DNA from: Pseudaminobacter soli (ex Zhang et al. 2022)
Lineage (GTDB): Bacteria; Pseudomonadota; Alphaproteobacteria; Rhizobiales; Rhizobiaceae
Assembly: GCF_014595955.1 (NCBI RefSeq)
Contig: NZ_JABVCF010000010.1
Span: forward strand, 1-64,000
Length of the DNA: 64,000 bases
Direction: 5' to 3'
The position numbers and the translations under genes are program-made. Below the pieces are notes generated by a model. It did no database searches. It worked only from the letters and a program-made list of their open reading frames with translations, and was not told the DNA's origin. Positions 5,722-20,018 of the stretch are shown piece after piece (within the stretch, counting starts at the first letter, position 1; each line of letters starts with the position of its first letter).

Positions 5722-5752
5722 TTGTCTACAATTTTTTTTCCATTGCATACAA
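5722..5752. promoter_or_regulatory. two-box operator between dctP and the molybdenum hydroxylase operon
   Basis: Boxes TTGTCTACAA (5722-5731) and TTGCATACAA (5743-5752) are separated by exactly 11 nt, mostly T. The same arrangement occurs at 14687-14717 and 19988-20018. The site lies 115 bp from dctP and 108 bp from the FAD subunit gene, centrally in the divergent region. TTGnnnnCAA boxes suit FCD-type GntR regulators; the gene at 11069-11752 is the local candidate (inference). Confidence 0.65.
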
Positions 5753-5859
5753 GACTTACGTGGCATAGCCTTCGGCGCGGGATTAGGCTGAAACAATCCG
5801 GCAGGCGCAGCGGCTTCTTGCGGATTTTCAGGATCCTAGTCGATTGTTAAGGGGAACCG

Positions 5860-6729
5860 ATGAGGCCAGCGACATTCGAGTACCATCGCGCTACTTCGCT
5901 TGAGCACGCGCTGCAGTTGCTCGGCGAGTTCGGCGAGGAAGCCCGCCCGATCGCAGGTGGGCAAAGCCTGGTTCCAATGATGAATTTCCGGCTCGCCAGA
6001 CCCGGTCATCTCGTCGACATCAATCGACTTCCGCTCAATGCGATTGAGATCGTCGGTTCCATGCTCAGGATCGGAGCGCTGACGCGCCACGGCGCCTATT
6101 TCGACCACCCGCTAATCGCAAGGCACTTTCCTGCCTTTCTCGATGCGGTGCACTACATCGGCCACCCCACTATCCGGCGCAACGGTTCCATCGGCGGCAG
6201 CATCTCGCATGCGGACCCGACCGCGGAACTGCCGGCCGTCGCGGTGCTCCACGATGCCGACATCGTCGTCCGTTCGGCGGCGGAAGAGCGCCGCATCAAG
6301 GCGAGCGAGTTCTTCGTCAGCGCCTACGTCACGGCTCTCGAGCCAGGCGAAATGGTCGTGGCAGTGGAATTTCCGATCCCGCCGGCGGCATCGGCCGGGA
6401 GCTTCGTAGAGATGAGCGAGCGCAGCGGCGACTTCGCGACCGCGTCGGTCGGTATCGTGCTCGAGCACGAGGGCGGCCGGATTGCCAAGGCGGCGATGGT
6501 GTGCTCGGGCGCAGGCCTAGTGCCAATCCGAGCGCCCGATGTGGAAAGCCATCTGCTCAACCGAGCGCTCAATGACCCGCATGCGGAAGAGGCCGGCCGG
6601 ATTTTCGCGGCCTCGATAGATCCCGTCGACGACCATATCGCATCCGCGGCGTACCGGCGCAGCCTCATCGCAGAGCTGACGCGCCGCGCAATCGAGACTG
6701 CCTGCTCCAGAGCACTGGGAAGATCATGA
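5860..6729 (+). CDS. molybdenum hydroxylase, FAD-binding medium subunit (CoxM/XdhB type)
   Basis: 289 residues of the xanthine dehydrogenase-family FAD subunit, which passes electrons from the iron-sulfur subunit to the acceptor. It starts directly on the fold with the RPATFEYHRATSLEHALQLL pattern, has the FAD pyrophosphate loop AGGQSLVPMMNFR (about residues 30-42), and the second FAD motif NGSIGGSISHADPTAE near 110. Start ATG preceded by GGGGA. First gene of a three-gene operon with 4-bp stop/start overlaps. The hydroxylated substrate is not identifiable from this subunit. Confidence 0.93.
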   Translation: MRPATFEYHRATSLEHALQLLGEFGEEARPIAGGQSLVPMMNFRLARPGHLVDINRLPLNAIEIVGSMLRIGALTRHGAYFDHPLIARHFPAFLDAVHYIGHPTIRRNGSIGGSISHADPTAELPAVAVLHDADIVVRSAAEERRIKASEFFVSAYVTALEPGEMVVAVEFPIPPAASAGSFVEMSERSGDFATASVGIVLEHEGGRIAKAAMVCSGAGLVPIRAPDVESHLLNRALNDPHAEEAGRIFAASIDPVDDHIASAAYRRSLIAELTRRAIETACSRALGRS

Positions 6730-7220
6730 TCGAGATCACGCTTGAGGTGAACGGTGTCACCAAGACGCTGAGCGTCGAACCGCGTCGACTGCTGGCCGAC
6801 GTGCTTCGGCAGGAGTTCAATCTTTGCGGTGTCCACATCGGATGCGCGCACGGGGCCTGCGGGTGCTGCACTGTCCACCAGGACGGCACGCCCAGGCTCT
6901 CCTGCCTGACGTTCGCCGTCCAGTGCGATGGAGCTTCGATAAGGACTGTCGAGTCGCTCGGAGGTCCGACCGCGGAGCATTCTCTCCAGCAAGCATTCCG
7001 CAGCGAACATGGCCTGCAATGCGGTTATTGCACGCCGGGATTCCTGATGACCCTCGTGCCCTTCGTGGATGAGATGGTGGAAATCGGACGCAGGCCTGAC
7101 GACGAGGAGATCAGGGAAGCGATGAGCGGAAATATCTGCCGCTGCACAGGATACCACGGCATCGTGGCGGCCGTTCGCAAGGCCATCGACGACGGTCTCG
7201 GTGAAGGGAGCGTGGCATGA
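6726..7220 (+). CDS. molybdenum hydroxylase, 2Fe-2S small subunit (CoxS/XdhC type)
   Basis: 164 residues with two iron-sulfur domains. The N-terminal plant-ferredoxin-like cluster ligands lie in CGVHIGCAHGACGCC and a later Cys in PRLSCL. The C-terminal helical domain has CGYCTPGFLMT and NICRCTGYHGI. Together these bind the two [2Fe-2S] clusters that wire the Mo centre to FAD. It overlaps the FAD-subunit gene and the large-subunit gene by 4 bp each, so a fixed subunit ratio is likely. Confidence 0.95.
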   Translation: MIEITLEVNGVTKTLSVEPRRLLADVLRQEFNLCGVHIGCAHGACGCCTVHQDGTPRLSCLTFAVQCDGASIRTVESLGGPTAEHSLQQAFRSEHGLQCGYCTPGFLMTLVPFVDEMVEIGRRPDDEEIREAMSGNICRCTGYHGIVAAVRKAIDDGLGEGSVA

Positions 7221-9559
7221 AGGCGGGTCGACCCAGACATATTGGCGCGCGGGTCCAGCGCTTCGAGGACATCCGCCTCCTCTCCGGCTCGGCGCGCTAT
7301 ATTGACGACGTCCGCCTGCCTGACATGCTGCACCTCATGTTCGTGCGATCGGACACGGCTCACGCCCGCATCCGTTCGGTCGACACCTCCGCCCTGTCGG
7401 ATCTCGAGTTTCCGACATGGGTGTTCACTGGCAAGGACACGGCCGGGCTGTCGATGAAAGCGCATCAGGACTATCCGGAGATGCAGTATTCGGAGCAGCC
7501 GCTGCTCGCCGAAGACAGAGTGCGCTTCGTCGGCGAGCCGGTCGCAGTCGTTCTCGCAGAGGACGCCTACAAGGCGGAGGACGCAGCAGAGCACATTTTC
7601 GTCGACTACGAGCCGCTACCGGTCGTCGGCACCATGGAACAGGCGCGCGATGCTGCGATCCCGCCTTTGTTCGACGGGTGGAAGAGCAACGTCATCGTCC
7701 AGCGGCAAATGAAGGGGGGCGACCTGGAAGCAGCCAAGGCGGCCGCCGCCCATGTCGTCAAGCGCACCTATCGGACGCAGCGCCAGGCCGGTGTTCCGAT
7801 GGAAGGCCGCGGGGTGGTCGCTCGCTACGACCATTCCGACCGGGTCCTGACCGTATGGTCGTCAACCCAGATGCCGCACCTCGTGCGCACCTACATTTCG
7901 GAGGAGCTTGGTCTTCCTGAATCCCGTATCCGCGTGGTCGCGCCCGACGTCGGCGGTGGTTTCGGCGTGAAGGGCCAGGTTTATGCCGACGAAGTGCTGA
8001 TTGCGTGGGTGGCGATGAAGACCGGCCGCCCAGTGAAGTGGATCGAGGACCGGCGCGAGCACCTGATCGCCAGCATCCATGCCCGCGATCACGAACACAC
8101 ACTCGAGGCCTATGTCTCGGCCGACGGCCGCCTGCTCGGCCTGAAGGCCGACATCACGGTGGACAACGGCGCCTACTCTACCTTCCCGTTCACCTCGGCC
8201 GGCGAGCCGGGCATGGTCGGCAAGGTGCTTCCCGGCCCTTATGACTTCCATGCCTACGAGGCCACCTTCAGGGCGGTTGCCACAAACAAATGCGCGATCG
8301 GCACCTATCGCGGCGTGGCCCGCCCGTCCGCGGTCTTCTCGCAGGAACGGCTGATGGACGACATCGCCACCGAGTTGGGGATGGACCCTTTCGAATTCCG
8401 GCTAAAGAACATCATCCGCGAGTTCCCTTACCGCAACGTGCTCGGCTTTACCTACGATGCCGGCTCCTATGCGGAATCCCTGGAAAGAATGCGCAAGCTT
8501 CTGGCCGAAGACGTAGCCCAGGCTGCCGCCTCGCACGGCTCCCGCACCAAGCGCATCGGCGTCGGGATAGCCTGCTTCATCGAGCAGACGGCCCACGGCA
8601 CGCCGGACTTTACGCGCCGCCGCGTGCCCATTGAAACAGGCTACATCGCGGCTCGGGTCGAGATGTCGCCGGATGGCGAGGTCACCATCGATCTCGGCCT
8701 GCAGAACCACGGCCAGGGCCTCGAGACAACGATGGCGCAGGTCGCAGCCGACGCGCTAGGGGTGCAGCCGGAAAACGTATACGTGCGCCACGGCGACACG
8801 CTGACGACGCCCTATTCAGTCGGCACCTGGGGCAGCCGTGGCGGTCCGCTCGGAGGCGGCGCCGTTCATATCGCGGCGAGCCGCATTGCCGACAAGCTGC
8901 GTGCGATCGCCGCGCATTTGCTTCAGGCCAGGCCCGACGAGATCGAGTTGGCGGACGGCCTCGCCTCGGTGCGCGACAATCCCGGGAGGCACATCAAGAT
9001 CTCGAGGCTCGCGCGCATCGCGCTGCGCAATGTCGACCAGCTTCCGGAAGGAATGGCGCCGGGACTGGAGGCCCAGTTCAGCCTCGACGGACCGCGGGAC
9101 GGCACCTACTCAAACGCGGTGCATGCGGCTGTGGTGGAGATTGATGTGCCTACGGGCAAGATGAAGCTTCGCCGCTTCGTGGTGATCGAGGATTGCGGCA
9201 CGATCCTGAATCCGCTCGTCGTCGACGGTCAGGTGCGGGGCGGCGTGGTGCAAGGCATCGGTTCGGCCATGTTCGAGCACTTCATCTACGACGGTGAGTG
9301 CCAGCCGCTCACCACCAGCTTCGCCGACTACCTCATGCCGTTGGCGCCGGAAATCCCCAATATCGAGGTGCATCATATCGAGACGCCAACCCCGCTGACG
9401 CCGCTCGGAGCCAAGGGCCTTGGCGAAGGCGGAGCCATCGGGCCCGCGGCGGCCATCGCCAATGCGGTTTCGAATGCACTTGGCGTCAACGTGAGTGCCA
9501 CTCCGCTCAACGGCAACGCAATCTGGAACCTGTCCCGGCATCTTCGCGACGCATCCTGA
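7217..9559 (+). CDS. molybdenum hydroxylase, molybdopterin-binding large subunit (CoxL/XdhA type)
   Basis: 780 residues of the xanthine oxidase/aldehyde oxidase family. Seen in order: the aldehyde oxidase a/b-hammerhead domain with RIVEDIRLLSG-like start, the VAPDVGGGFGVKG molybdopterin loop (about residue 245), GTYRGVARPSA (about 360), and the C-terminal LGAKGLGEGGAIGPA loop holding the catalytic Glu (about 738). The CO dehydrogenase form-I active-site signature AYRCSFR is absent (TYRGVAR instead), so this is not a CO dehydrogenase. A heteroaromatic, purine-like or aldehyde substrate is more likely. The enzyme is cytoplasmic and needs Mo cofactor maturation genes that are not in the window. 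Confidence 0.93.
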   Translation: MKAGRPRHIGARVQRFEDIRLLSGSARYIDDVRLPDMLHLMFVRSDTAHARIRSVDTSALSDLEFPTWVFTGKDTAGLSMKAHQDYPEMQYSEQPLLAEDRVRFVGEPVAVVLAEDAYKAEDAAEHIFVDYEPLPVVGTMEQARDAAIPPLFDGWKSNVIVQRQMKGGDLEAAKAAAAHVVKRTYRTQRQAGVPMEGRGVVARYDHSDRVLTVWSSTQMPHLVRTYISEELGLPESRIRVVAPDVGGGFGVKGQVYADEVLIAWVAMKTGRPVKWIEDRREHLIASIHARDHEHTLEAYVSADGRLLGLKADITVDNGAYSTFPFTSAGEPGMVGKVLPGPYDFHAYEATFRAVATNKCAIGTYRGVARPSAVFSQERLMDDIATELGMDPFEFRLKNIIREFPYRNVLGFTYDAGSYAESLERMRKLLAEDVAQAAASHGSRTKRIGVGIACFIEQTAHGTPDFTRRRVPIETGYIAARVEMSPDGEVTIDLGLQNHGQGLETTMAQVAADALGVQPENVYVRHGDTLTTPYSVGTWGSRGGPLGGGAVHIAASRIADKLRAIAAHLLQARPDEIELADGLASVRDNPGRHIKISRLARIALRNVDQLPEGMAPGLEAQFSLDGPRDGTYSNAVHAAVVEIDVPTGKMKLRRFVVIEDCGTILNPLVVDGQVRGGVVQGIGSAMFEHFIYDGECQPLTTSFADYLMPLAPEIPNIEVHHIETPTPLTPLGAKGLGEGGAIGPAAAIANAVSNALGVNVSATPLNGNAIWNLSRHLRDAS

Positions 9560-9609
9560 GACCAAGACCGGAGCGCTCACGAAGCGGCGCCCCGGAATAT
9601 CGCAAACGG

Positions 9610-9643
9610 AAAGGCCGGCGAAGCCACAGCTTCGCCGGCCTTT
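9610..9643 (+). terminator. terminator after the molybdenum hydroxylase operon
   Basis: A perfect 14-bp stem, AAAGGCCGGCGAAG at 9610-9623 and its complement at 9630-9643, with a 6-nt loop and a short T-rich tail (TTTCTATAT). It lies 50 bp after the large-subunit stop and faces the convergent terminator at 9688-9721. Confidence 0.85.
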
Positions 9644-9687
9644 CTATATCCGCGGGCATCTTCAATTCAGATGACCGGCGCAAAAAA

Positions 9688-9721
9688 GTGCTGGTGCCCT
9701 CCCCTTGGAGGACGCCAGCAC
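9688..9721 (-). terminator. terminator after the ammonia-lyase gene
   Basis: A 15-bp stem with one wobble and one mismatch (9688-9702 with 9707-9721), CCTT loop. On the minus strand it is followed by TTTTTTG, a good rho-independent signal for the dpaL-like gene that ends at 9757. Confidence 0.9.
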
Positions 9722-9756
9722 GAAAAACGTTTGTTCAGGTAGTCGTCATCAGACGC

Positions 9757-10953
9757 TTACGCATGCATCGCGGCGGGCAGCGGTCTTCCATGCAGGAGCG
9801 CTTCATAGACATCGGGATCGGTGGCGCCTTCGGTACCGATGAGCAACACGCGCGAGGCGGCGTCGAGGCCGAGGGTAGCGCGGAGCGTGCTGTCGCCGGT
9901 CGCGGCCAGAAGCCCCGCTAGTCCCGCGGCGCCGGACTCACCAATGCGCAGTTCCGGGTCGCCGGACAGCGGGCGCGCCAGGCGCTGCAAAGCCTCCACG
10001 GCGGTCTCATCTGGCACGTCGATATAGAAGTCGGCGGCCTTTTCCAGGATCTCCCAGGCTGTCAGCGACGGCTCGTAGCATTCCAGCATTGCCATCACAG
10101 TGGCCTCTCCGGCGGCGATCGCGGTCCGGCGCCCCGTCTCGGCGCTGACCTGCAGGCAGTTCGCTCTGTCGGGCTCGACCACGACCAGCTTCGGGCGCGA
10201 AGCCCCGTGCCGGTCCAGAAGATGGCCCGCGACCGCCGCGGCCAGCCCGCCGACACCACCCTGAACGAAGACATGCGTATAGGGCCGCTGCGCCTGGGCG
10301 AAAATCTCGTCGAGCATCAGCGTGTAGCCCTGCATGACCAGGCTGGGAATCTCGGTATAGCCTTCCGAGGCGAAATCCGAGACGACGGTCCATCCCTCCC
10401 GGCGCCCGGTCTCGCTCGCTTCCGCGACCGACTGGTCGTAATTGCCGGCGGTCCGCCTGATCTCGGCTCCGAAAGCGGCGATCGCCTTCTCGCGACCGGC
10501 AGAAACGCCGCTGTGGAGGAAGATTACGCAGCGGCATCCGAACATCTGGGCACCAGACGCAACAGAGCGTCCGTGATTACCGTCCGTCGCACAGCAGACC
10601 GTGAGGTCGGCCGCCAGCTTCCGTACCTCGTCACTCAGCAGCTCTGACGGGTCAATGGGGCGGCCGAGCCTAGGCTCGCAGTGCTCGCGCACGAGCCGCG
10701 CGACCGCATAGGCGCCGCCGAGGGCCTTGAAGGAGCCGAGCCCGTAGCGACGGCTTTCGTCCTTGATGTCTATCCCCGCAATCCCAAGGCTTGCCGCAAG
10801 CGAGGGAAGGCTTGTGAGCGGCGTCGGTTCATAGGTTGGGAAGGCGGGCAGGAACTCGCGTACGGTCTCCGATGCCTTGGCGCCAGCAATCGCAGCCTCC
10901 GCCATGCTCAGGGAGGCGTTCCGCTTCGATGAGCGGTTTTCGACTAGTTTCAT
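9757..10953 (-). CDS. diaminopropionate ammonia-lyase-like PLP enzyme
   Basis: 398 residues of the fold-type II PLP family close to DpaL/YgeX, which converts 2,3-diaminopropionate (either enantiomer in E. coli) to pyruvate and ammonia. The PLP lysine is in GLGSFKALGGAYAV (K76), preceded by the DESRRYGL pattern typical of this subgroup. A glycine-rich phosphate loop (FVQGGVGGLAAAVAG) and CATDGNHGRSVA are also present. Start chosen at the internal ATG of MKLVENRSS because the longer frame overlaps nothing family-like. It is 115 bp downstream of the GntR gene on the same strand, hence probably co-transcribed. A threonine/serine dehydratase-like role is the main alternative. Confidence 0.82.
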   Translation of the reverse strand: MKLVENRSSKRNASLSMAEAAIAGAKASETVREFLPAFPTYEPTPLTSLPSLAASLGIAGIDIKDESRRYGLGSFKALGGAYAVARLVREHCEPRLGRPIDPSELLSDEVRKLAADLTVCCATDGNHGRSVASGAQMFGCRCVIFLHSGVSAGREKAIAAFGAEIRRTAGNYDQSVAEASETGRREGWTVVSDFASEGYTEIPSLVMQGYTLMLDEIFAQAQRPYTHVFVQGGVGGLAAAVAGHLLDRHGASRPKLVVVEPDRANCLQVSAETGRRTAIAAGEATVMAMLECYEPSLTAWEILEKAADFYIDVPDETAVEALQRLARPLSGDPELRIGESGAAGLAGLLAATGDSTLRATLGLDAASRVLLIGTEGATDPDVYEALLHGRPLPAAMHA

Positions 10954-11068
10954 CTCTTGGACCTCGCTTGCTCGCGCCGGTCGCAGTAGCGCCGGCCGCA
11001 GGATAATCGTCTCCCATCCCGGCGGAGACTCGCGCCGCCGGGCAAAGTTCACCTCGAAAAGGTCGAAC

Positions 11069-11752
11069 CTATTCCCTGTTCTCGGTTTCCAGCGACAGCA
11101 GAACGTCGGCGGCCGCCCCCGCCACCAGGTCGACGTGCTCGCGCATCAGTCTGGCAGCAAGGTCCTCTTCACCGGCAGAGATCGCTTCGACGATCCGGCC
11201 ATGCTCGACCACCGACTTCGCCATCTTGCGCGGTGTCGTGATGTGGCGGCGATAAACATTGAGCCGATTACGCAGCTTTCGGCTTTCCGTTTGCAGGAAC
11301 GTACTGCGCGAGCCTCGGAAGATCGCGTCGTGGAGTTCGTTGTTGGCCGCGTAGAAGCCTTCCTGATCCCCCGCTTCAGCACACTTGGAGCACTCCTCGT
11401 GCCACTTGCGCATTTCGGCAGTTTCCTCTCGCGTCATGCGCCGGGCGGACAGACGCGCCGAAAGACCCTCGTACTCCGCCATCACCTGGAACATTTCGAT
11501 GAGTTCGGCAGTGGTGAGGCGCCGCACCGTGGCGCCCTGGTTCTTGCGGATCTCGACTAGCCCGCTGGAGGCCAGATGGCGAAGCGCCTCGCGCACAGGG
11601 GTGCGCGAGACTTCGAAACGGCGCGCCAGCGACTGCTCGTCAAGTCGGTCTCCCGGCTTCAGGATGCTGTTGAGGATGTCATCCTCGAGAACGCGCACCA
11701 GATTGTCTGCCGACAATCTGGTTTCCTTCTCCTGGTCCATGACTTCGCTCAC
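11069..11752 (-). CDS. GntR family transcriptional regulator, FCD (FadR) subfamily
   Basis: 227 residues. Winged helix-turn-helix at about 15-80 with LARRFEVSRTPVREALRHL, the hallmark recognition region, and LVEIRKNQGATVRRLT wing. The C-terminal all-helical FCD domain (about 90-215) has metal/ligand His and Arg/Glu positions in NNELHDAIF, ITTPRKM and HGRIVEAI. FCD regulators usually repress catabolic operons until a carboxylate effector binds. It is the only intact regulator inside the island, so it is the best candidate to bind the three two-box operators. Confidence 0.92.
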   Translation of the reverse strand: MSEVMDQEKETRLSADNLVRVLEDDILNSILKPGDRLDEQSLARRFEVSRTPVREALRHLASSGLVEIRKNQGATVRRLTTAELIEMFQVMAEYEGLSARLSARRMTREETAEMRKWHEECSKCAEAGDQEGFYAANNELHDAIFRGSRSTFLQTESRKLRNRLNVYRRHITTPRKMAKSVVEHGRIVEAISAGEEDLAARLMREHVDLVAGAAADVLLSLETENRE

Positions 11753-11770
11753 CGAACACCCCTAGAACAG

Positions 11771-11812
11771 TCGCATCCGATGTTAGATGCATCCTTGCCC
11801 AATTTGATGCAA
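11771..11812. promoter_or_regulatory. possible autoregulatory repeats upstream of the GntR gene
   Basis: GATGCA occurs at 11786-11791 and 11806-11811, 20 bp apart, within TTAGATGCATC and TTTGATGCAAG; a GCATCC lies just before, at 11773. The second box resembles the reverse complement of TTGCATACAA. This is a weaker match than the three main operators and could be a self-control site of the GntR gene whose start is 30-60 bp away. Confidence 0.35.
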
Positions 11813-11829
11813 GCACCCGCTGTACGTGC

Positions 11830-12162
11830 TTATTGCTGAACGGTGATCACGAGGCAGGCGCTCTCTTCCTCGCCTTCGTTGATCGTGTAGTGCGGATCGC
11901 GCGGCTCGAACAGCACGGCTTCGCCCTGCTTTAGAGTGAAGCGTTCCTTGCCGGTATCGAAGGTCATCTCGCCCTTCACGACGTAGAAGACCTGCGACCA
12001 GTCGTCGTGGTGGTGCAACTCACCGCCACCGCCCTTCGGCGCCTTGGAGAGCTGGACGGAAAAGTTGCTGCCACGAAACGGCACGATATCCAGCACGTTC
12101 AACCCGCCAAAGTGGTTCGGCGGTGTAACTCCGGTCGCCGCACCGTTCTTCCAGATGTTCAT
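11830..12162 (-). CDS. small cupin-domain protein
   Basis: 110 residues forming a single cupin barrel. Motif 1 is GGGGELHHHDDWSQVFYVVKGEM, with the metal-binding His cluster and Glu/Gln replaced by Gln; motif 2 is around EAVLFEPRDPHYTINEG with the final His. Start placed at MNIWKNG. It follows the ThDP-enzyme gene with a 29-bp gap in the same operon. Roles could be isomerase, small dioxygenase or sugar/acid sensor; none is demonstrated. Confidence 0.8.
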   Translation of the reverse strand: MNIWKNGAATGVTPPNHFGGLNVLDIVPFRGSNFSVQLSKAPKGGGGELHHHDDWSQVFYVVKGEMTFDTGKERFTLKQGEAVLFEPRDPHYTINEGEEESACLVITVQQ

Positions 12163-12191
12163 GTCGCTCTCTCTCGATCCTGCAGCGCCCA

Positions 12192-13844
12192 CTAGGAGAT
12201 GTAGGCCATGTAAGGGCTGATAACGCTACGCACCGGCACCTGGATGATCGCCGGCTTGCCGCTGGCGATCGCATCGCCGAGCGCTTGCGCGATCTCGCGT
12301 TCATTGCGCGCGAGATATCCCTTTCCACCAAGTCCCTCGGCAACCTTGGTCCAGTCGCGGCGGGGCAGCTTCATTTCGTAAGTCTCGCCGAAGCTCTGCT
12401 GCTGCGGCAGCGCTATTGCCCCCCAGCTCTCGTCGTCGAGCACCACCACGATGAAGGCCCGACCATAGCGCTCCGCGGTATCCAGTTCCGAGACGTGGAA
12501 GCCGACACCGCCGTCGCCGACGAATACGATCACAGGCGCCTCGGGATCCGCAAAGCTCGCCCCGGCGCCATAAGGAAGCTCCGCGCCCAGCGCACCTGAC
12601 TGACCAGCCCGCAGATAGCGGCCAGGCGCGAAGACGCGTAACCGAGCATCCGCCCAGAAGTCGATGTTGCCATGGGATGTCACGAAAATCGCGTTTTCCG
12701 GCGCGGCCGAACTGACCGCATCGATTGCAGCGACCGGGTGCATCCCGTTAGCGTCACCGTCGCCGAGTTGAGCCTTGCGTTCCTCGCTCCAGGCGGAGAC
12801 GAGACCGTCGCACCAAGCGCGGTCTGCCTGTAGTGCCGGCATTCCTGCGAGCAATTCGATGAACGCGGCTGGCGAGGACGCAATGCCAAGCTCCACGCGC
12901 CGGTTGCGATGCAGCAGTTCCTGGTCCGAGCAGACCTGGATTATGCGGGCCTGCGAGCCCACGCTGTCGCCAAACTCTAGGTCGAACTCGAAATGATGGC
13001 CGAGCAGGAGGATGCAGTCCGCCTCCTTCATGGCCCGCCGAAGCGTTGCATTACAGGGAGCGTAGGCCGGTCCCATCCAGCGCTCATGGCGCTCATCGAC
13101 GATGCCACGGGCAAGGCGCATGGTGGCAAAAGCAAGTCCGTGCTTCTCGACGGCCTCGACGATCTTTCCGGAGCGGCTCCAGAAGAGTTCGTCGCCGAGG
13201 ATCAGCAGAGGACGAGCGGCGGCGGCAACAAGGGCGCGCGCGGCATCGGCATCGGCCGAGGCCAGCCCCGGGATCCCAGGATTTGCCGGCGCAACACTGG
13301 CGGGCCTGCCCTTCAGCGGAGCCGACAGGATGTCGGTCGGCACCTCGATGAAAACCGGACCGGGGCGGCCCGCCCACATCTTGCGCCACGCAATGTCGAG
13401 ATACTCCTGCAGCCGATCCGGGTCCGTGCAGCGTGCAGCCCATTTGGTAACGTTCTTCATGATCGGCAGCACGTCGTAGGCCATGCCTGCACCGCGTTCG
13501 GCCGAACGCGTTGCGGCTTGTGCGCCGACGATGATGACCGGAGTGCCGGCAAGCATGGCGACAAGCCCCGGAGTCACGGCGTTGGTGACGCCGGGACCAA
13601 GAGTGACGACTGCCGCACCCGGCCTTCCGGTCACGCGCGACTGCGCTTCGGCCATGAAGCAGGCCGCGGCTTCGTGGCGAGCGTGAACCAGCCGCACCCC
13701 TTGATGCGCGCAGGCGCGATAGACCGAATTGATCGGCCCACCGGAGACGGAGAACACATTCCGTATACCGGCTTCCTTGAACCAGGCGACGATGGCTGCG
13801 CCGCCATCCATGGTCTGGGCGTCGGCACCTTCCTTAGTAGGCAC
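12192..13844 (-). CDS. thiamine diphosphate-dependent enzyme (acetolactate synthase-like)
   Basis: 550 residues with the three-domain layout of the ThDP decarboxylase/carboligase family: PYR domain (about 10-175, catalytic Glu in HARHEAAACFMA), central Rossmann-like domain (about 190-320), PP domain (about 365-540). The ThDP/Mg motif is present as FVGDGGVGFH, ending in VVLDDESWG where most relatives have NN. Start is a GTG preceded by GGAGG at 8 nt, overlapping the SDR stop by 11 bp. The longer frame is a shadow of the SDR gene. Likely decarboxylates or ligates a 2-oxo acid in the pathway; a biosynthetic acetolactate synthase is unlikely because no regulatory subunit is adjacent. Confidence 0.85.
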   Translation of the reverse strand: MPTKEGADAQTMDGGAAIVAWFKEAGIRNVFSVSGGPINSVYRACAHQGVRLVHARHEAAACFMAEAQSRVTGRPGAAVVTLGPGVTNAVTPGLVAMLAGTPVIIVGAQAATRSAERGAGMAYDVLPIMKNVTKWAARCTDPDRLQEYLDIAWRKMWAGRPGPVFIEVPTDILSAPLKGRPASVAPANPGIPGLASADADAARALVAAAARPLLILGDELFWSRSGKIVEAVEKHGLAFATMRLARGIVDERHERWMGPAYAPCNATLRRAMKEADCILLLGHHFEFDLEFGDSVGSQARIIQVCSDQELLHRNRRVELGIASSPAAFIELLAGMPALQADRAWCDGLVSAWSEERKAQLGDGDANGMHPVAAIDAVSSAAPENAIFVTSHGNIDFWADARLRVFAPGRYLRAGQSGALGAELPYGAGASFADPEAPVIVFVGDGGVGFHVSELDTAERYGRAFIVVVLDDESWGAIALPQQQSFGETYEMKLPRRDWTKVAEGLGGKGYLARNEREIAQALGDAIASGKPAIIQVPVRSVISPYMAYIS

Positions 13845-14622
13845 GGGATTTTCCTCCGTCGAGTGCAATGGCAGTTCCGGTGATGAAGCCGGCGCGTTCG
13901 GATGCCAGCATGGCGACCATTGCTCCGAAGTCGCTCGGATCGCCGAATTTGCGCGCCGGCACCTCGTCCAGCCACAATTCCTCGGCCGCCGCCCGATCGA
14001 GCCCGTCGCGCTCCATGCTGGCCTTGATGAGGTCTTCCATGCGGTCCGTCGCGAACGGGCCCGGGCACAGGCAGTTGACCATGATGTTCTCGTGCGCAAA
14101 CTCGATCGAGAGCGACTTCGCCAGCCCAACGACCGCAAGCCGCAGCGAATCCGATAGCACCATGTTCGGCTGAACGACCTTTACGCCCACCGTCGTGACG
14201 AAGACGATGCGCCCAAAGCCACCGGCCTGCATGTGCGGGAGCACGGCATGGGAGAGATCCACCAGCGGCAGCAGTATCTCGTTGAGCGCGCTCTCCCAAC
14301 CCTCGCGCGGCACGCTGAGGAACGGGCCTGACGCCGGCCCGCCGGTGTTGCCGACGAATATGTCGAGCCCACCGAATTCGCGGGCGACCGCATCGACTCC
14401 GGACTTCAGGGTCGCCCGGTCGGAGAGGTCCATAGCCACGCCCATCGCGCCGGATGCGCCGGCCTGACGGAGCTCTGCGACGAGGCCCTCCATGGCGGCA
14501 ACGTTACGCCCTGCGACCGCGACCTTGGCGCCCTCCGCCGCAAGCGCCAGTGCTGACGCCCTGCCCAAACCGCGGGAAGCGGCAGTCACCAGGGCGCGCT
14601 TCCCCTCCAGACCAAGCTTCAT
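13834..14622 (-). CDS. SDR family oxidoreductase
   Basis: 262 residues, classical short-chain dehydrogenase. The cofactor loop is VTAASRGLGRASALALA (TGxxxGxG variant with AASRGLG), and GNTGGPASGPF replaces the usual NNAG. The Tyr-x-x-x-Lys motif is not standard: the region reads VQPNMVLSDSLRLAVVGLAKSL, so the active-site Tyr appears substituted while the Lys seems retained. This pattern is seen in the divergent SDRs annotated as 3-oxoacyl-ACP reductase-like. First gene of the SDR-ThDP-cupin operon, divergent from the aldehyde dehydrogenase. Confidence 0.85.
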   Translation of the reverse strand: MKLGLEGKRALVTAASRGLGRASALALAAEGAKVAVAGRNVAAMEGLVAELRQAGASGAMGVAMDLSDRATLKSGVDAVAREFGGLDIFVGNTGGPASGPFLSVPREGWESALNEILLPLVDLSHAVLPHMQAGGFGRIVFVTTVGVKVVQPNMVLSDSLRLAVVGLAKSLSIEFAHENIMVNCLCPGPFATDRMEDLIKASMERDGLDRAAAEELWLDEVPARKFGDPSDFGAMVAMLASERAGFITGTAIALDGGKSRAY

Positions 14623-14686
14623 TGGGTATTACTCCGATGGGTCAATGTGCAGTCTGGCTACCAGCGTGTAAACACGATGTCAATTC

Positions 14687-14717
14687 ATGTAGACAATCTT
14701 TTTTATTTTGCATACAA
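14687..14717. promoter_or_regulatory. two-box operator between the SDR and aldehyde dehydrogenase operons
   Basis: Boxes ATGTAGACAA (14687-14696) and TTGCATACAA (14708-14717) with an 11-nt T-rich spacer, matching 5722-5752 in box identity, spacing and spacer composition. It lies 65 bp from the SDR start and 33 bp from the aldehyde dehydrogenase start, so one bound regulator could control both directions. A longer reading of the aldehyde dehydrogenase from the TTG in this box is unlikely for that reason. Confidence 0.68.
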
Positions 14718-14749
14718 CCTTGCCAGAACCGGCCAAAGAGACGGCATCA

Positions 14750-16222
14750 ATGGAGCCCTACATGATCGAACGACCCCTCATCCCCATCGTCGTCGGCAAC
14801 AAGGTCCTCAACGAGGGATCCGACGGAATCGGCCAGTCGTTCGACCCTGCAACCGGCGAGTTGGTTGCCCAGTTTGCGCGGGCGGGACAGGTGGAAGTCG
14901 AGATGGCCGTCGCCGCTGCGCGCGAGGCGTTCGACAATGGTCCGTGGCGTCGCATGCGGCCGTTCGAGCGGGGTCGCATCCTGCAGCGAATCGGCGAACT
15001 GATGCTGCAGCGGCGCGGCGAGATCGCGCGCAAGGAAAGCCGGGACAGCGGCAAGCCCCTGCGGGACTCCTATTGGGAGGTCGACTGCTCGGCGCGCTTT
15101 TTCGAGTTCTATGGCGGCGCCGCCGACAAGATGCACGGCAATTCGATCCCTCTCGGACCGGACTGGTCGGACTGGACCGTCAAGGAGGCGATCGGCGTCA
15201 GCCTCCACATCATCCCGTGGAATTATCCTTTCCAGCTGATCGCGCGCGGCGTTGCGCCCGCGCTTGCGGCCGGCTGCGCCGTGATCATCAAGCCCTCGGC
15301 CGACACGCCCGTCACGGCCTATGAATTCGTTAAGATCTGCCAGGAAGCCGGCCTGCCCGAAGGGTTGGTCAACCTCGTGAACGGCCGCGGCTCGCTCGCC
15401 GGTGACCTGCTCGCGCGGCACAAGGGCGTGGACCAGATCACCTTCACGGGATCCGTCGCCACCGGAGAACGCGTGCTGGTCGCCGCCGCCTCGCATGCAA
15501 TTCCCTGCAACATGGAGCTTGGCGGCAAGTCACCGCAAATCCTGTTTGCAGACGCCGATCTCGACAGGTCGCTGCCGATCGTCGCCGGTGGCTTCCTTAC
15601 CCATTGCGGGCAGGTCTGCAACGCAGGCACCCGCCTGTTCGTGGAACGCAAGATCCACGACCGCGTCGTCGAGCAACTGCACGCGCGCATCAGCAAGATG
15701 ACCCTTGGCGCGGGCATCGACGATCCGGACATGGGGCCGCTCATCAGCAGGGCGCACAGGAGCGATGTGGAGCGCTACTATGACGTTGCCCGTGAAGATG
15801 GAGAGCTCCTCCTCGGCGCCGAGCTGCCGCAGGCACCCGAACTTGTCGATGGCGCCTTCGTTCGCCCCGGTCTCGTGGTCGGCGCGGGCAACAATACTCG
15901 AATCGCACGTGAGGAAATCTTTGGCCCGATCCTGACGGTGATACCGTTCGATACGGCCGAGGAGGCCATCTCCGGCGCCAACGACTCGCCCTTCGGGCTC
16001 GTCGCCGGCGTGCACACCACCAACATCGACAAGGCGCTTGGCGTCGGCGAGAAGCTGCGCGTCGGCCAGGTCTGGATCAACTCCTTCGGCGTCGGGCTCG
16101 ATGTCGAGTTCCCCTTCGGCGGCTACAAGCTGTCCGGCTTCGGCCGCGAGAAGGGCCTAGAGGCGCTGGCCGCCTACCAGCAGATCAAGAACATCGCGAT
16201 CCATCATCCGCTGCCGCGCTGA
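14750..16222 (+). CDS. NAD(P)-dependent aldehyde dehydrogenase
   Basis: 490 residues of the classical ALDH superfamily, oxidising an aldehyde to its acid. Key sites: IIPWNYPFQL (oxyanion Asn), FTGSVATGERV (cofactor Gly loop), MELGGKSPQIL (general-base Glu) and HCGQVCNAGTRLF (nucleophilic Cys). The C-terminal PFGGYKLSGFGREKGLEAL tail is intact. Two ATGs are possible, at 14750 and 14762; the second has GGAG 6 nt upstream. It is followed by the CoxG-like gene after a GC-rich imperfect hairpin. Could act on the product of the ThDP enzyme. Confidence 0.93.
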   Translation: MEPYMIERPLIPIVVGNKVLNEGSDGIGQSFDPATGELVAQFARAGQVEVEMAVAAAREAFDNGPWRRMRPFERGRILQRIGELMLQRRGEIARKESRDSGKPLRDSYWEVDCSARFFEFYGGAADKMHGNSIPLGPDWSDWTVKEAIGVSLHIIPWNYPFQLIARGVAPALAAGCAVIIKPSADTPVTAYEFVKICQEAGLPEGLVNLVNGRGSLAGDLLARHKGVDQITFTGSVATGERVLVAAASHAIPCNMELGGKSPQILFADADLDRSLPIVAGGFLTHCGQVCNAGTRLFVERKIHDRVVEQLHARISKMTLGAGIDDPDMGPLISRAHRSDVERYYDVAREDGELLLGAELPQAPELVDGAFVRPGLVVGAGNNTRIAREEIFGPILTVIPFDTAEEAISGANDSPFGLVAGVHTTNIDKALGVGEKLRVGQVWINSFGVGLDVEFPFGGYKLSGFGREKGLEALAAYQQIKNIAIHHPLPR

Positions 16223-16335
16223 TTCGGCGAGGCTGCCCCTCCGCCGGAAGCGCCGCATGATCGCGGGGCTTCCGGAGGGCGGCCCCGCGAAGCGCATCCC
16301 TCTCCCATCGCATCCAGTCGTTAGAAGGAACTCAC

Positions 16336-16782
16336 ATGTCATTGGTCATCGAGGGCGAGGAGCGCATCGCGGCGCCGATCGGCAGGGTTTGGGAAGCTAT
16401 CAACGATCCTGAGATGTTGAGATCGTCGATCCCGGGGTGCACCGAGCTTGCCAAGACGTCGGACGACACCATGACCGCCACCGTGGTGCTGAAGATCGGT
16501 CCGATAAAGGCCACCTTCGCCGGGCAGGTCACCCTCTCCAACCTTCAGCCGCCGAGCGGACTCACCATCTCCGGTGAGGGAAAGGGTGGCATCGCGGGCT
16601 TTGCGAAAGGCGGCGCGGACGTCTCACTGAGCGAGGACGGCCCGGACACCACGATCCTCAAATACCAGGCGAAGGCCGATGTCGGCGGCAAGATCGCGCA
16701 GCTCGGCAGCCGGCTGATCGTGTCGACCTCGAAGAAGCTCGCTGAACAGTTCTTTTCGAACCTCAGCAAGGCGATCTCCTGA
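16336..16782 (+). CDS. CoxG-like SRPBCC protein
   Basis: 148 residues of the START/SRPBCC fold as in CoxG (CO dehydrogenase subunit G), seen beside many molybdenum hydroxylase operons. The start EGEERIAAPIGRVWEAINDPEMLRSSIPGC is diagnostic, followed by alternating strands and a long C-terminal helix. Relatives lacking a membrane anchor are thought to help recruit or mature the Mo enzyme. Its presence ties the aldehyde dehydrogenase operon to the hydroxylase at 5860-9559. SD GAAGGA before the ATG. Confidence 0.9.
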   Translation: MSLVIEGEERIAAPIGRVWEAINDPEMLRSSIPGCTELAKTSDDTMTATVVLKIGPIKATFAGQVTLSNLQPPSGLTISGEGKGGIAGFAKGGADVSLSEDGPDTTILKYQAKADVGGKIAQLGSRLIVSTSKKLAEQFFSNLSKAIS

Positions 16783-16981
16783 CCTTCAGTCCCTTGCACC
16801 CTGAGGGTCGGGGTTTCGCACCGGGGCCTCGAGGTTCCGTAAGTGGCAATTTCGCCAGCCACGCGTCCCCTACCCTATCCGACAACCTGGACAACGACCG
16901 TTTTCCCTCTGGGCCGTCGTTGAAGGTTGGGCCTTACCAATCGGCTCTAAGAACCCCATGCTGCACGAGGCGCAGGAGGAA

Positions 16982-17912
16982 TCACTTCACATTCGGAAGC
17001 GGCCCTCGACTGAGCGCTGTCTGGCGACGGGAAAGCCCGATGATCCACGCGCGCAGCTCCATGCCAAGCGGCTTTTCCAGAGCGGAGCGCTGCCACGCAA
17101 GAAAGTAGGTTTGCTTCAGCTGTAGGCGCAGATCGAAGGGGATTGCCAGCCGCCCAGCAACGAGGTCGTCATAGATCATGGAAAGCTGGGCGAGAACGAA
17201 GCCGCGTGTTGATCGCCGCATCGATCGCCGCGCTCGAGATCGAGAACATCAAATCTCCGGAGCGCCGCGGCGAAATCTCGCCGATGCTAGCCGCCCAATC
17301 GTTCCAGCTGGGAGGCTGCTGATAGCCGGATTCCCATTCGATTCCGAGCAAGGAACGCGCCAGGATGTCGCTGGGTCGGTGCACGGGGTTCGCAGCAAGG
17401 AACGCCGGTGAGCAGCAAGGCACGACCCAGTCGGTAAACAGCTCGGAATAAAGCTCGAAGGACCGGACCCGGTCTCCATAGGAAATGCGGAAGTCGATCG
17501 GATCGGCATTTGGCGCTGGTTCTGCACCTGTCGCCACAAGTCGGACGTTCGCTGCGGATTCAGCCTGCCAGTCGACGAGTTTCGGGCCGATCCACTTGCT
17601 CGCCAAGGATGGTAAGCAACTGACCGTCAGACTGCTCCGCTCCCTCATGCTGTGAAGTTCGTTCTGTGCCTCGCGAAGCTGGTCGAACGCCTTGGTGACG
17701 CGGGCATGATAGATGCGGCCCCAATGCGTGAGCGCAATGTTTCTGCCGTTTCGCTCCAGCAGCCGAATGCCGAGAATTTCCTCTGCCCGTTTGATCTGCT
17801 GGCTGACAGCGCCGCTCGTCACGCCAAGTTCGTCCGCGGTCGCACTGACGCTGCCGTTACGGCCGAGTGCCTCGAACGTCTGGATGGCACGCAATGGCGG
17901 AAGTTTTCTCAA
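16982..17912 (-). pseudogene. GcvA-like LysR regulator broken by a one-base frameshift
   Basis: The helix-turn-helix half (from RKLPPLRAIQTFEALGR) and most of the effector domain read in one frame, down to SSAAIDAAINTR. The rest (GFVLAQLSMIYDDLVAG to the end) continues in another frame. Adding one G/C in the GCCGC run at about 17202-17205 joins them into a normal full-length regulator of about 310 residues. The start is best taken as TTG at 17912, preceded by GGGGGGAG; the upstream ATG extension is not family-like. It is either a recent mutation or a base-call error. It lies divergent from the diiron protein gene, so it probably controls that gene pair. Confidence 0.85.
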
Positions 17913-17937
17913 TCGGCTCCCCCCCCAGAATTCTCGC

Positions 17938-17952
17938 TTTAGCAGAACTAAA
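17938..17952. promoter_or_regulatory. inverted repeat TTTAG-N5-CTAAA upstream of the LysR gene
   Basis: A perfect 5-bp inverted repeat with 5-nt spacer, 26 bp upstream of the TTG start. The T-N11-A-like shape and position suit a LysR autoregulatory box. Confidence 0.4.
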
Positions 17953-18160
17953 CCAAATCGCAATTTCAATCATTTTGCTTCGGGCTGGCCCCTGGCTATG
18001 ATTCGAATGTCCGGCCACCGTGGGAGCGGCTTAGGAAGCGAGTGCTTCGCCGGGCTGAACTGAAATACGGAAATTTGCAGGGGTGCCTCGTTGGCGGCCA
18101 TTCGATGGCTTGACCAGTCGAAGTCGCTCGCCTGCGGCCATCGTGGCAAGGAGGGCATAA

Positions 18161-18853
18161 ATGGTTGATGTTCGCAGGGTGCGAGGCGGTAGCGGTCTGG
18201 ACGAGATCAATGACGAACTCGACCAGATCCTCGACTCCGTCGTCGAGAACACGCGGAATGCCACGGAGGCGTTCTTCGCATCGTATGACAAGAATCCAGA
18301 TCCGCAGATCCTGGCTGACTGGCTGACGCCACGCGCCTGGCGCGAGATCGACTACGTGTTCCTGCTCAATGAACAAATTCGACGCTATGGCCTCGCCTTC
18401 GAGCGCAAGCACATCACGCTGCTGGCAAAGCAGTCCTTCCAGGAGGCCGAGCACTACGAGATGGTCGGACAGGCGATCGAGTCTCTCGGCGGCAAGGTCC
18501 CGACCTCGGCACCTCCGGAAGCTCGCCCCTGGAGCGAGTTTCTATGGGAGTGCCTGGAGCGCCATCCTCTGGCGGCGATCGCTGCATGGAATTGTTCGGA
18601 AACTTCTGCGTCCGGAAGCTTCGAGCCAACGTTCAGGGCGGGCGCCAGGCACGGCTTCGACGAAGTTGTCCGGATCTACAAGCAGATCGAGACCGACGAG
18701 AAATTCCACGTCGGCCTCGGACGGCAGGTGCTCGCGGCCTACGCCAAGACTGACAAGGATCGCGACGAGATCCTGCGGGCGATGCGCGGCATGCGCGACA
18801 TAGCCTGGAAGACCTTTACGCCGGAATCCGTCTCCCAAGCACGCGCCGGCTGA
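18161..18853 (+). CDS. ferritin-like diiron protein, putative oxygenase
   Basis: 230 residues, nearly all helical. It has the spacing of a four-helix diiron carboxylate site: E71 (LLNEQ), E95-x-x-H98 (EAEH), E147 (CSETS) and E180-x-x-H183 (EKFH). Start ATG is preceded by a strong AAGGAGGG. The next gene, 57 bp on, is a VanB-type NAD(P)H reductase with its own 2Fe-2S cluster, suggesting an electron supply and hence an oxygenase or oxidase rather than iron storage. No specific family name could be attached; an AurF-, ribonucleotide-reductase- or COQ7-like assignment is not supported beyond the ligand pattern. Confidence 0.75.
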   Translation: MVDVRRVRGGSGLDEINDELDQILDSVVENTRNATEAFFASYDKNPDPQILADWLTPRAWREIDYVFLLNEQIRRYGLAFERKHITLLAKQSFQEAEHYEMVGQAIESLGGKVPTSAPPEARPWSEFLWECLERHPLAAIAAWNCSETSASGSFEPTFRAGARHGFDEVVRIYKQIETDEKFHVGLGRQVLAAYAKTDKDRDEILRAMRGMRDIAWKTFTPESVSQARAG

Positions 18854-18910
18854 CCTCTGCCACCCGACGCCTCGGCTTCTTCTCCCAGCAGGGCAACGGC
18901 AATCAAGTGA

Positions 18911-19909
18911 ATGACGCAGATCAGTAGCATGACGACATTCAATCCGCAGTCTGGCGGCAAGGCGAGCCAGTTGTTCGACATGACCGTTGCAGAACTGCGC
19001 TTGGTCGCCGATGGCGTGATCGCCATTGAGTTGGCAGCGCCGGACGGCGGTGACCTGCCCTCCTGGGAGCCTGGAGCACACATCGACGTACTGCTGCCGA
19101 ATGGCTTGGTCAGGCAGTACTCACTGTGCGGCGATCCTTCCCTGCGCGATCGCTGGAGGATCGCCGTGTTGCGCGAACCTTCCAGCCGGGGTGGGTCGAG
19201 TTGGCTGCATGACCAACTGCAGGAAGGGCAGCGGATCGCCGTGGCCGCACCCCGCAACAATTTCAGGGTCGTGGAATCCGAACGTTATCTGTTCGTCGCC
19301 GGCGGGATCGGGATCACGCCGATACTTCCCATGGTCCGTTCAGTTGCTGCAAAGGGCAAACAATGGACGCTTCTCTATGGGGGGCGTAGCCGCCGGTCCA
19401 TGGCCTTCCTCGAAGAGATCGAAGGCTTTCAAGGGGGCGCATCCCATATCATCCCACAGGACGAGTTCGGGCTGCTGGATCTCGACAGCTTCCTTGGAGA
19501 GCATCAGCCTGACACGGTCGTCTATTGCTGTGGCCCGACGCCCCTGATCGAAGCAGTGGAGCAGAGATGCCGCAACTGGCGACAGGGCGCTCTACACCTG
19601 GAACGCTTCGCGCCAAGCGAAAAGGCAAAGACTCGAGAGAAGGGTAGTTTCGAGGTCGAACTCGCCCGCTCCGGCCGGCGCATCGTGGTTCCGCCTCATC
19701 GCAGCATCCTCGATGTACTGGAGGAAAACGGCTGCAAAGTCACCAACTCATGCCGGGCCGGCATCTGCGGCACTTGCTTGGTGAAGGTCCTTTCCGGCGT
19801 TCCCGATCATCATGACGATGTGCTCAGTCTGGATGAGCAAGCGGCGGGAGACGCAATGCTCGTCTGCGTCTCACGCGCTAAGAGCGACCGTTTGGTGCTG
19901 GACCTCTAG
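18911..19909 (+). CDS. VanB/phthalate dioxygenase reductase-type ferredoxin reductase
   Basis: 332 residues. Order: FMN/FAD domain with the RQYSLC motif (about residue 70), NAD(P)H domain with VAGGIGITPI (about 130) and YCCGPTPL (about 206), and C-terminal plant-type [2Fe-2S] domain with ligands in SCRAGICGTC and a last Cys in MLVCVS. This order (flavin, NAD, 2Fe-2S last) is that of phthalate dioxygenase reductase and VanB, which deliver electrons to an oxygenase. No Rieske oxygenase is nearby; the natural partner is the diiron protein just upstream. Confidence 0.92.
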   Translation: MTQISSMTTFNPQSGGKASQLFDMTVAELRLVADGVIAIELAAPDGGDLPSWEPGAHIDVLLPNGLVRQYSLCGDPSLRDRWRIAVLREPSSRGGSSWLHDQLQEGQRIAVAAPRNNFRVVESERYLFVAGGIGITPILPMVRSVAAKGKQWTLLYGGRSRRSMAFLEEIEGFQGGASHIIPQDEFGLLDLDSFLGEHQPDTVVYCCGPTPLIEAVEQRCRNWRQGALHLERFAPSEKAKTREKGSFEVELARSGRRIVVPPHRSILDVLEENGCKVTNSCRAGICGTCLVKVLSGVPDHHDDVLSLDEQAAGDAMLVCVSRAKSDRLVLDL

Positions 19910-19987
19910 GCCAGTTTGGAGGGCCTAAAGATCGTTTGGCGAGGAGTTGCCGAGAGGATGTAAGCAAGATCAGCATACGCGCCGGAG

Positions 19988-20018
19988 TTGCATACAAAAT
20001 TACAACAATTGCATGCGC
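19988..20018. promoter_or_regulatory. two-box operator upstream of the MHS symporter gene
   Basis: Boxes TTGCATACAA (19988-19997) and TTGCATGCGC (20009-20018), again exactly 11 nt apart, 114 bp before the symporter start. The first box is identical to the second box at both other operators. Confidence 0.6.

Follow-up and report, generated by a model that had tools for sequence, protein, structure and literature searches.

Is the catabolic island near the start of contig NZ_JABVCF010000010.1 of Pseudaminobacter soli controlled as one regulon and, if so, through which sites and by which protein? The stretch of DNA that was analysed (64,000 nucleotides, hereafter the window) carries repeated short boxes in front of several of these genes, which an initial annotation had read as one paired operator serving three promoter regions and five transcription units under a GntR protein. 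Among the listings shown by literature searches, none dealt with this island or operator. The genes concerned are:

1354..5607, - strand: S1 minus-strand unit, TRAP transporter P, Q and M and M20 deacylase (TRAP M by position and sequence only)
5860..9559, + strand: S1 plus-strand unit, three-subunit molybdenum hydroxylase of CoxM, CoxS and CoxL types (CoxS likewise)
9757..14622, - strand: S2 minus-strand unit, SDR, ThDP enzyme, cupin, GntR and a diaminopropionate-ammonia-lyase-like (DAPAL-like) PLP enzyme
11069..11752, - strand: VanR-type FCD GntR regulator, proposed repressor, frame open without stops (Pfam, model and fold matches)
14762..16782, + strand: S2 plus-strand unit, aldehyde dehydrogenase (ALDH) and CoxG-type protein
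20129..21478, + strand: MHS metabolite/H+ symporter downstream of S3 (TIGR00883, 445.4 bits, cut-off 443.45)

The sites, all three being read at their coordinates, are:

5722-5752: S1, TTGTCTACAA N11 TTGCATACAA
5722..5731, + strand: S1 box B, TTGTCTACAA, TRAP-proximal (sequence, genome scan)
5743..5752, + strand: S1 box A, TTGCATACAA, CoxM-proximal (sequence)
14687-14717: S2, ATGTAGACAA N11 TTGCATACAA
14666..14675, - strand: possible degenerate third box of S2 (box C), GTGTTTACAC, a further 21 bp along
14678..14683, - strand: TTGACA, putative SDR -35 element, located between boxes B and C (conservation)
14687..14696, - strand: S2 box B, TTGTCTACAT, SDR-proximal (sequence, conserved S2-type pair)
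14708..14717, + strand: S2 box A, TTGCATACAA, ALDH-proximal (sequence, conservation)
19988..20018, + strand: S3, TTGCATACAA N11 TTGCATGCGC, in front of the MHS symporter gene; the weaker site, not conserved

S1 and S2 each comprise two 10-bp GntR-type palindromes at a start-to-start distance of exactly 21 bp, the first box of S2 being the reverse complement of TTGTCTACAT. As annotated initially, TTGCATACAA is identical in the three sites (5743-5752, 14708-14717 and 19988-19997) and each copy has a partner box across an 11-nt gap. The box consensus TTGnnTACAA had to be given up, the common element being the palindrome core TGTnnACA. Both boxes are convincing at S1 and S2; S3, the third of the proposed paired operators, is weaker.

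A search of the 6.1-Mb genome with the two-box pattern, allowing up to 3 mismatches, matched S1, S2 and S3 only (reversed control pattern: 0 matches), which agrees with the earlier expectation of few additional hits. The expected number per genome is 0.004 when up to 2 mismatches are allowed, which covers S1 and S2, and rises to 0.10 with up to 3, the level of S3. The single box TTGCATACAA has 4 genomic copies, 3 of them inside the island, with about 2.3 expected genome-wide under a first-order model of the window. The fourth copy, on another contig, was rejected as an operator; it lacks a partner box, and its flanking genes appear unrelated. Since the scan pattern was derived from the sites themselves, the independent support comes from conservation.

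The main evidence is phylogenetic footprinting. Pairs of the S1 or S2 type are present in 16 of the 17 orthologous islands examined, with S1-type pairs at 13/13 CoxM starts and S2-type pairs at 14/15 SDR starts (14/14 within a set of 16 islands; the island added afterwards has no site at its SDR). Counted over these 16 islands at a threshold of 13 of 16, pairs lie upstream of SDR (14/14), CoxM (11/11), TRAP_P (8/8) and ALDH (13/14), and none was found at the unit-internal genes ThDP (0/14), cupin (0/15), GntR (0/16), DAPAL (0/9) and TRAP_M (0/10). Of 13 orthologous loci, 11 contain strong pairs at the 21-bp pitch (17 pairs in all), while 34 alternative pitches from 10 to 44 gave 2 pairs together; around more distant GntR homologues, 67 loci yielded 1 pair at any pitch and 0 at 21. 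The start distance of 21 is thus kept in the pairs found while distances to the gene starts vary, as in double-site divergons with constant spacing. Genome rarity, fixed pitch and conservation in orthologous islands together rule out a chance origin of S1 and S2. Recent copying of one promoter is not favoured either, because the flanks of S1 and S2 differ and the spacers differ between islands (13 distinct of 14 at S2, 9 of 11 at S1). In the closest islands, spacers are T-rich at both S1 and S2. We also considered as an operator a 20-bp palindrome at the start of the GntR reading frame, but rejected it because most orthologues do not keep it.

S3 calls for a separate assessment. Its second box agrees with the palindrome at 4/8 positions (7/10 to TTGCATACAA), and the strong box stands first, not second. 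It may be a chance match that leaves the MHS symporter outside the regulon, a reading to which we give somewhat less than an even chance. The poor second box and the expected 0.10 matches are consistent with this, as is the result for two close MHS relatives, whose 4.3-kb loci contain no box of 7/8 or better (0/2) though both genomes carry the island. Against it, S3 is one of only three genome matches and lies inside the island (expectation about 2e-4 when scaled to 14.3 kb), and 0.25% of window positions match as well as its second box does. Of the five-unit regulon in the initial annotation, the shared operator is supported, and the S2 minus-strand unit runs on through the GntR and DAPAL-like genes; inclusion of the MHS symporter is weak.

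Which protein may bind these sites? The islands were mostly retrieved with the GntR protein as query, so the presence of GntR in them is by construction. Among 397 genomes of the order, GntR is found in 6, the operator in 7 and both in 5 (Fisher 1.6e-9), i.e. the operator is present in 5/6 GntR genomes vs 2/391 others (G320 and G353). The one genome with GntR but no operator has an island without SDR and ThDP in the stretch covered. In a family sample of 297 genomes, GntR occurs in 5, and the independently searched ThDP enzyme in the same 5; among the matches listed, zero-mismatch operator matches with a non-AT B box also fall in these 5. Operator, GntR and enzymes are inherited as a block; the genomes are therefore not independent, and co-occurrence alone cannot single out GntR.

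The protein itself matches PF00392 (66.7 bits) and PF07729 (87.3 bits), both above cut-off, with an N-terminal GntR winged helix-turn-helix and a C-terminal FCD domain. The AlphaFold2 monomer model (mean pLDDT 86.6) has six helices after residue 80, as in the VanR group of FCD proteins, whose effector domain has six helices and lacks the extra FadR helix. Fold ranking places VanR chains (Atu1419, AlkR) as well as McbR, TM0439 and 3ihu, classed as VanR by PMC7797058, above FadR chains. Residues S49, R50, T51 and R54, invariant in 19 homologues, match the DNA contacts Ser44, Arg45, Thr46 and Arg49 described for Atu1419; N137, H141, H184 and H206, equally invariant, match its site of three His plus Asn/Asp (PMC7797058, available part) and may form a putative metal site. 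The conserved boxes of TTGTnnACAA type show the GT..AC palindrome of GntR/FCD proteins and fit the 2 nt between GT and AC given for some FadR-subfamily groups in the accessible part of PMC4494728. Among the other FCD proteins of the genome, the nearest paralogue shares just 38% identity with the island GntR. By its domains, model and fold matches, the candidate regulator is a VanR-type FCD GntR protein. Its earlier designation as likely regulator is supported by co-occurrence in genome samples, linkage, GntR-type boxes and the conserved recognition helix. A motif noticed by eye has thereby become a testable regulon with 17 islands examined, one candidate regulator and two conserved divergent operator regions.

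Three features are new relative to the initial annotation: non-equivalence of boxes A and B, a degenerate third box 21 bp on, and the position of boxes on or beside -35-like hexamers. The core of box A is AT in 25/25 cases and that of box B in 0/25; at S1, box B has AG at its core (CT when read from the opposite strand) in 10/11 islands and CG in 1. Averaged across 14 islands, box C scores 4.64 out of 8, a value that among 600 offsets is exceeded only at A and B; it is a possible third box at the SDR promoter. A general sigma-70 scan of the S1, S2 and S3 regions gave no promoter at its thresholds, so the proposed promoter positions derive from conservation. TTGCAT is present at S1 in 11/11 islands, with TAGnnT 17 nt further in 9/11 (TTGCAT-N17-TAGCCT at box A fits a putative CoxM promoter), and TTGTAG in 10/11; the TTGACA of the SDR unit is exact in 12/14 islands, with a TA-type hexamer 17 nt downstream in 12/14. 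On this alignment evidence, the boxes are non-equivalent and polar, on or beside conserved -35-like hexamers.

We consider it likely that the VanR-type FCD GntR protein encoded in the island has S1 and S2 as its operators, and with less certainty S3; it would block polymerase until a pathway metabolite releases it. One GntR dimer would bind each 10-bp palindrome via the SRTPVREAL helix. A pitch of 21 bp corresponds to two turns, so the dimers would lie on one face of the DNA and could bind jointly, whether by forming a tetramer (the dimer-of-dimers of the initial annotation) or through contacts between neighbours. The S1 boxes fall on the proposed -35 hexamers of both divergent promoters, one for CoxM and one for TRAP. 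At S2, the proposed -35 of the SDR promoter is next to box B, with the weak box C situated between this hexamer and the -10. Bound GntR would therefore block RNA polymerase. A metabolite in the FCD pocket would release GntR, and transport, molybdenum hydroxylase and downstream enzymes would be induced together. The GntR gene lies inside the S2-controlled unit, so GntR may limit its own level and the circuit is probably autoregulated. On sequence grounds, the paired boxes mark a true regulon of an already known kind, tying together the genes of a catabolic pathway; docking sites before the island probably let one repressor hold it off until its compound appears.

This arrangement could be read differently. 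GntR may be an activator, or repress some units and activate others: at the SDR promoter, boxes A and B precede the proposed -35, with centres near -44 and -65 relative to the inferred start, a place where activators also bind. The S1 boxes, set on proposed -35 hexamers, and the place of box C between -35 and -10 agree with repression, and the VanR-type relative Atu1419 is a repressor (PMC7797058). We regard full or partial activation as rather unlikely. The pitch could also stem from the promoters, with boxes kept as -35 or neighbouring elements and any GntR binding by independent dimers. The hexamers conserved at S1, and the outward-facing TTG hexamer in each S1 box, agree with this. At S2, however, the pitch is the same although the conserved TTGACA falls outside both boxes, A and B; both palindrome halves are conserved; and four operators of malonate-/TRAP-linked FCD GntR proteins keep the pitch with TTGACA (3) or TTGACT (1) in the spacer, in a search that fixed the gap at 11 nt. 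We regard this explanation as unlikely.

Another regulator, for instance the LysR protein encoded at 17169-17969 or a protein from elsewhere in the genome, is a very improbable binder. A LysR gene is nearby, and a different LysR cluster occurs in 5/15 retrieved islands; but the frame in the window stops early (profile 232 of 305), only one of 16 other islands has a match to it, a weak one (85 residues, 31%), and the boxes are of GntR type.

Repression by GntR, the reading we prefer, has partial parallels. Atu1419 of Agrobacterium fabrum, also a VanR-type FCD GntR protein, resembles the island protein in fold, in its 10-bp palindrome with TGTnnACA core (box ATGTATACAT) and in recognition-helix residues, and also in the three His plus Asn metal-type residues and control of a catabolic region; the fold comparison gave 26-27% identity between the two. 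The Atu1419 palindromes are separated by 190 bp, with loops visible by electron microscopy, or by 109 bp, where the second is degenerate, in contrast to 21 bp here. Atu1419 is a tetramer (PMC7797058), whereas the island protein was modelled as a monomer. In E. coli NanR, three dimers bind (GGTATA)3, which is similar with respect to adjacent dimers, set spacing and a possible third dimer, but these repeats differ from the TTGTnnACAA palindromes, and cooperativity depends on a 32-residue N-terminal extension where the island GntR has only 16 residues before its Pfam match (PMC8012715, available part). NanR fits the model poorly (TM 0.41-0.48). Divergons of the FadR/HutC subfamily have constant-spacing double sites, the central pair serving both divergent units and being read as co-operative, as proposed here; the co-operative class carried the regulator gene inside, whereas S1 lies between two structural units, and in divergons lacking a regulator gene the double sites all acted separately, according to the text available (PMC4494728). 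A 21-bp code was not found in the accessible part of that paper (PMC4494728).

The malonate-type FCD GntR operators (loci L128-L131) share the layout: two palindromes at the same 21-bp pitch beside an FCD GntR gene, with malonyl-CoA decarboxylase or TRAP genes alongside. One box is TTGTATACAA (AT core) and the other varies; unlike in the island, TTGACA or TTGACT stands in the spacer. The GntR proteins of these loci (MatR) are 36-40% identical to the island protein. We tentatively suggest, while regarding it as doubtful, a phased-array code in one branch of VanR-type GntR proteins, in which A (AT core) and B (non-AT) palindromes follow every 21 bp and the number of dimers sets the promoter threshold. 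Two boxes would then serve the transport and oxidation units and three the repressor-containing unit, with the -35 on or between boxes and one inducer of an undescribed molybdenum-hydroxylase pathway. The A/B asymmetry together with the 21-bp pitch offers a clean test case for cooperation of adjacent VanR-type dimers.

No clear pathway emerged from the DAPAL-like gene and the extra genes of the islands. The DAPAL-like gene is present in some islands only, and other islands additionally carry genes for a PALP-fold protein, an arylmalonate-decarboxylase/EutA-like protein and a 2-hydroxyacid dehydrogenase.

Paired 10-bp boxes with an 11-nt gap, that is, a pitch of 21 bp, are read directly in the sequence at three places:

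5722-5752, S1, flanked by the TRAP/M20 and molybdenum-hydroxylase units
14687-14717, S2, flanked by the SDR and aldehyde-dehydrogenase units
19988-20018, S3, upstream of the MHS symporter

On direct reading, every strong box of S1, S2 and S3 is a near-palindrome with the core TGTnnACA. Across the genome (6,106,750 bases, 51 contigs), an exact scan finds TTGCATACAA in 4 copies, 3 of them inside the window, and the two-box pattern at up to 3 mismatches matches S1 (both strands), S2 and S3 only, which bears out the initial annotation's expectation of few genome-wide matches. The reversed control of the two-box pattern gives 0 matches in the same genome at up to 3 mismatches. Under a first-order Markov model of the window, the expected counts are 2.3 for single boxes and, for pairs, 0.004 (up to 2 mismatches) or 0.10 (up to 3). 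The single palindrome TTGTnnACAW is common genome-wide, with 67 forward and 69 reverse matches versus 25 and 23 for the control (window-based first-order Markov expectation about 93). Hence, specificity comes from the pair.

Search with the FCD GntR protein of the island (11069-11752, minus strand) against a species-level genome collection yields 110 relatives; the best 80 loci were analysed further. The same island is present in 13 of these 80 (L005-L017, GntR identity 56-80%) and absent from the remaining 67. Counting pairs of at least 14/16 points as strong and comparing pitches from 10 to 44, the island loci display 17 strong pairs at the 21-bp pitch, in 11 loci, and 2 at the 34 other pitches; the 67 loci without the island display 0 at 21 bp and 1 across all pitches. 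Sixteen islands (the 13 loci, L124 and L127 from a family search, and the window) were tabulated for pairs of at least 13/16 points within 300 bp upstream of a gene. Such pairs precede SDR in 14/14 and ALDH in 13/14 islands (L013 lacks it), CoxM in 11/11 and TRAP_P in 8/8, these counts viewing identical sites from opposite sides. M20 has one in 1/8, namely L011, where M20 is the first gene after S1; TRAP_M (0/10), DAPAL (0/9), cupin (0/15), ThDP (0/14) and CoxG (0/3) have none. A seventeenth island (L139) has an S1-type site and no site at its SDR gene; in this island SDR follows the TRAP genes in the same orientation. An S1-type site is also present in L141, from the genome of L014; the stretch read in L140, from the genome of L013, has none. 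Overall, at least one site is found in 16 of 17 islands. We regard the S1/S2-type operator and its regulon as real and conserved, new in its details and of a kind already known.

The initial annotation had assigned the operator to three promoter regions; S1 and S2 are kept across islands, whereas S3 has no counterpart at two close relatives of the MHS symporter. Of 296 other family genomes, two have such a relative (75%, 87%); both carry the island, and neither locus has a box of at least 7/8. S3 could have arisen by chance or through a recent local gain; we lean somewhat towards S3 being real.

The sites have a defined polarity. Written A then B, the core is AT in box A at 25/25 sites and in box B at 0/25; B lies closest to SDR or TRAP, A closest to ALDH or CoxM. 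A third box C at S2, a further 21 bp on, averages 4.64/8 matches and is weaker than A and B; its offset ranks third of 600 behind those two (next best 4.07) and gives 2.45 at S1, over a background of 1.7-1.8. Because box C falls within a promoter spacer that is itself conserved, scores just 1 and 2 in L014 and L017 (2/14 islands), and the islands are related, it is suggestive only. TTGACA stands between boxes B and C in 12/14 islands, with a TA-type hexamer 17 nt further in 12/14. At S1, box A holds TTGCAT in 11/11 islands, with TAGnnT 17 nt further on in 9/11; on the other strand, box B holds TTGTAG in 10/11, then GCATTA in 7/11. A general sigma-70 scan of the three site regions returns no promoter, and these hexamers are thus conservation-based proposals for candidate promoter elements. 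The spacers of S1 (5732-5742) and S2 (14697-14707) both hold T-tracts in the closest islands, which may bend DNA.

GntR presence in the 13 island loci is given by construction, as they were fetched with this protein; order-wide GntR and operator searches and the family-wide ThDP search are less circular. In the family sample, GntR (E <= 1e-60) occurs in 5/297 genomes and the ThDP enzyme (E <= 1e-150) in those same five, so that the enzyme is never seen without the regulator in this sample. Among the matches listed, zero-mismatch operators with a non-AT B box fall in these five, and one 1-mismatch operator of this type (G214) lies in a genome without GntR. The other genomes of the genus lack GntR and ThDP (3/3), one of them (G080) having a 2-mismatch operator match. 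Among 397 genomes of the order, GntR occurs in 6, the operator in 7 and both in 5 (Fisher P 1.6e-9, genomes treated as independent); in the four besides that of the window, the sites share a contig with GntR, at a distance of up to ~12 kb. Where the operator occurs without GntR (two genomes), its spacer includes GTCAA or TTGACA, resembling malonate-type operators; TGTCAA likewise stands in the S1-type spacer of the GntR-carrying genome G457.

Among the matches listed in the family scan, a second motif recurs in many rows: one of its boxes is TTGTATACAA, and its spacer contains TGTCAA or GTCAA. Its pitch is also 21 bp, the gap being fixed by the query. In each of four loci examined (L128-L131) the adjacent gene encodes an FCD GntR protein, with a domain check for L128 and L131; the malonate-type regulator goes by the name MatR. 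Neighbours are malonyl-CoA decarboxylase (L128, L130) and TRAP genes (L129; L131 by sequence only). A study of GntR divergons calls double sites of constant spacing co-operative, only if the divergon contains the regulator gene (PMC4494728), and one on NanR describes three dimers side by side (PMC8012715). Our literature search found no publication on this island.

Profile search assigns Pfam GntR and FCD domains to the regulator, and its predicted model displays six effector-domain helices. The top fold match is a GntR structure from Brucella (7u5q) and the next is Atu1419; AlkR, PmiR, McbR and TM0439 also outrank FadR chains. Ser49, Arg50, Thr51 and Arg54 are invariant in 19 homologues, as are Asn137, His141, His184 and His206. 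A further study states that the equivalent SRT..R residues of Atu1419 contact a 10-bp palindrome, and that some VanR members hold metal by three His with Asn or Asp (PMC7797058). The closest paralogue within the genome has 38% identity.

The minus-strand unit at S2 comprises, in order, SDR, ThDP enzyme, cupin, GntR and diaminopropionate-lyase-like enzyme with intergenic gaps of at most 77 bp; GntR is therefore probably under its own operator, autoregulated through S2. At the GntR start itself, 0/16 islands have an upstream pair of at least 13/16 (L009 and L012 score 12). Boxes just 5' of GntR occur in L005 (TTGTATGCAA at -26), L009 (TTGTATACAA at -81) and L012 (TTGTATGCAA at -91), and none of these in the window; they are possible lineage-specific autoregulatory sites.

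Further genes lie between S2 and S3:

17169-17969, minus strand, GcvA-like LysR gene with a prematurely ending frame (profile 232/305)
18161-18853, plus strand, 230-residue protein with ferritin-like diiron motifs by eye
18911-19909, PaaE/GbcB-like reductase adjoining the previous gene

Downstream of the LysR gene, the family sequence resumes by eye on the same strand in another frame. The 18161-18853 product has no Pfam or NCBIfam match; with the reductase it may form a possible two-part oxygenase. A conserved PALP-fold protein of ~490 residues, not seen among the island genes of the window, occurs in 6 of 15 fetched islands (L124:11596-13077 and five others). An insertion inside the island of L012, L016 and L127 encodes an arylmalonate-decarboxylase/EutA-like protein alongside a LysR protein and a second TRAP transporter.
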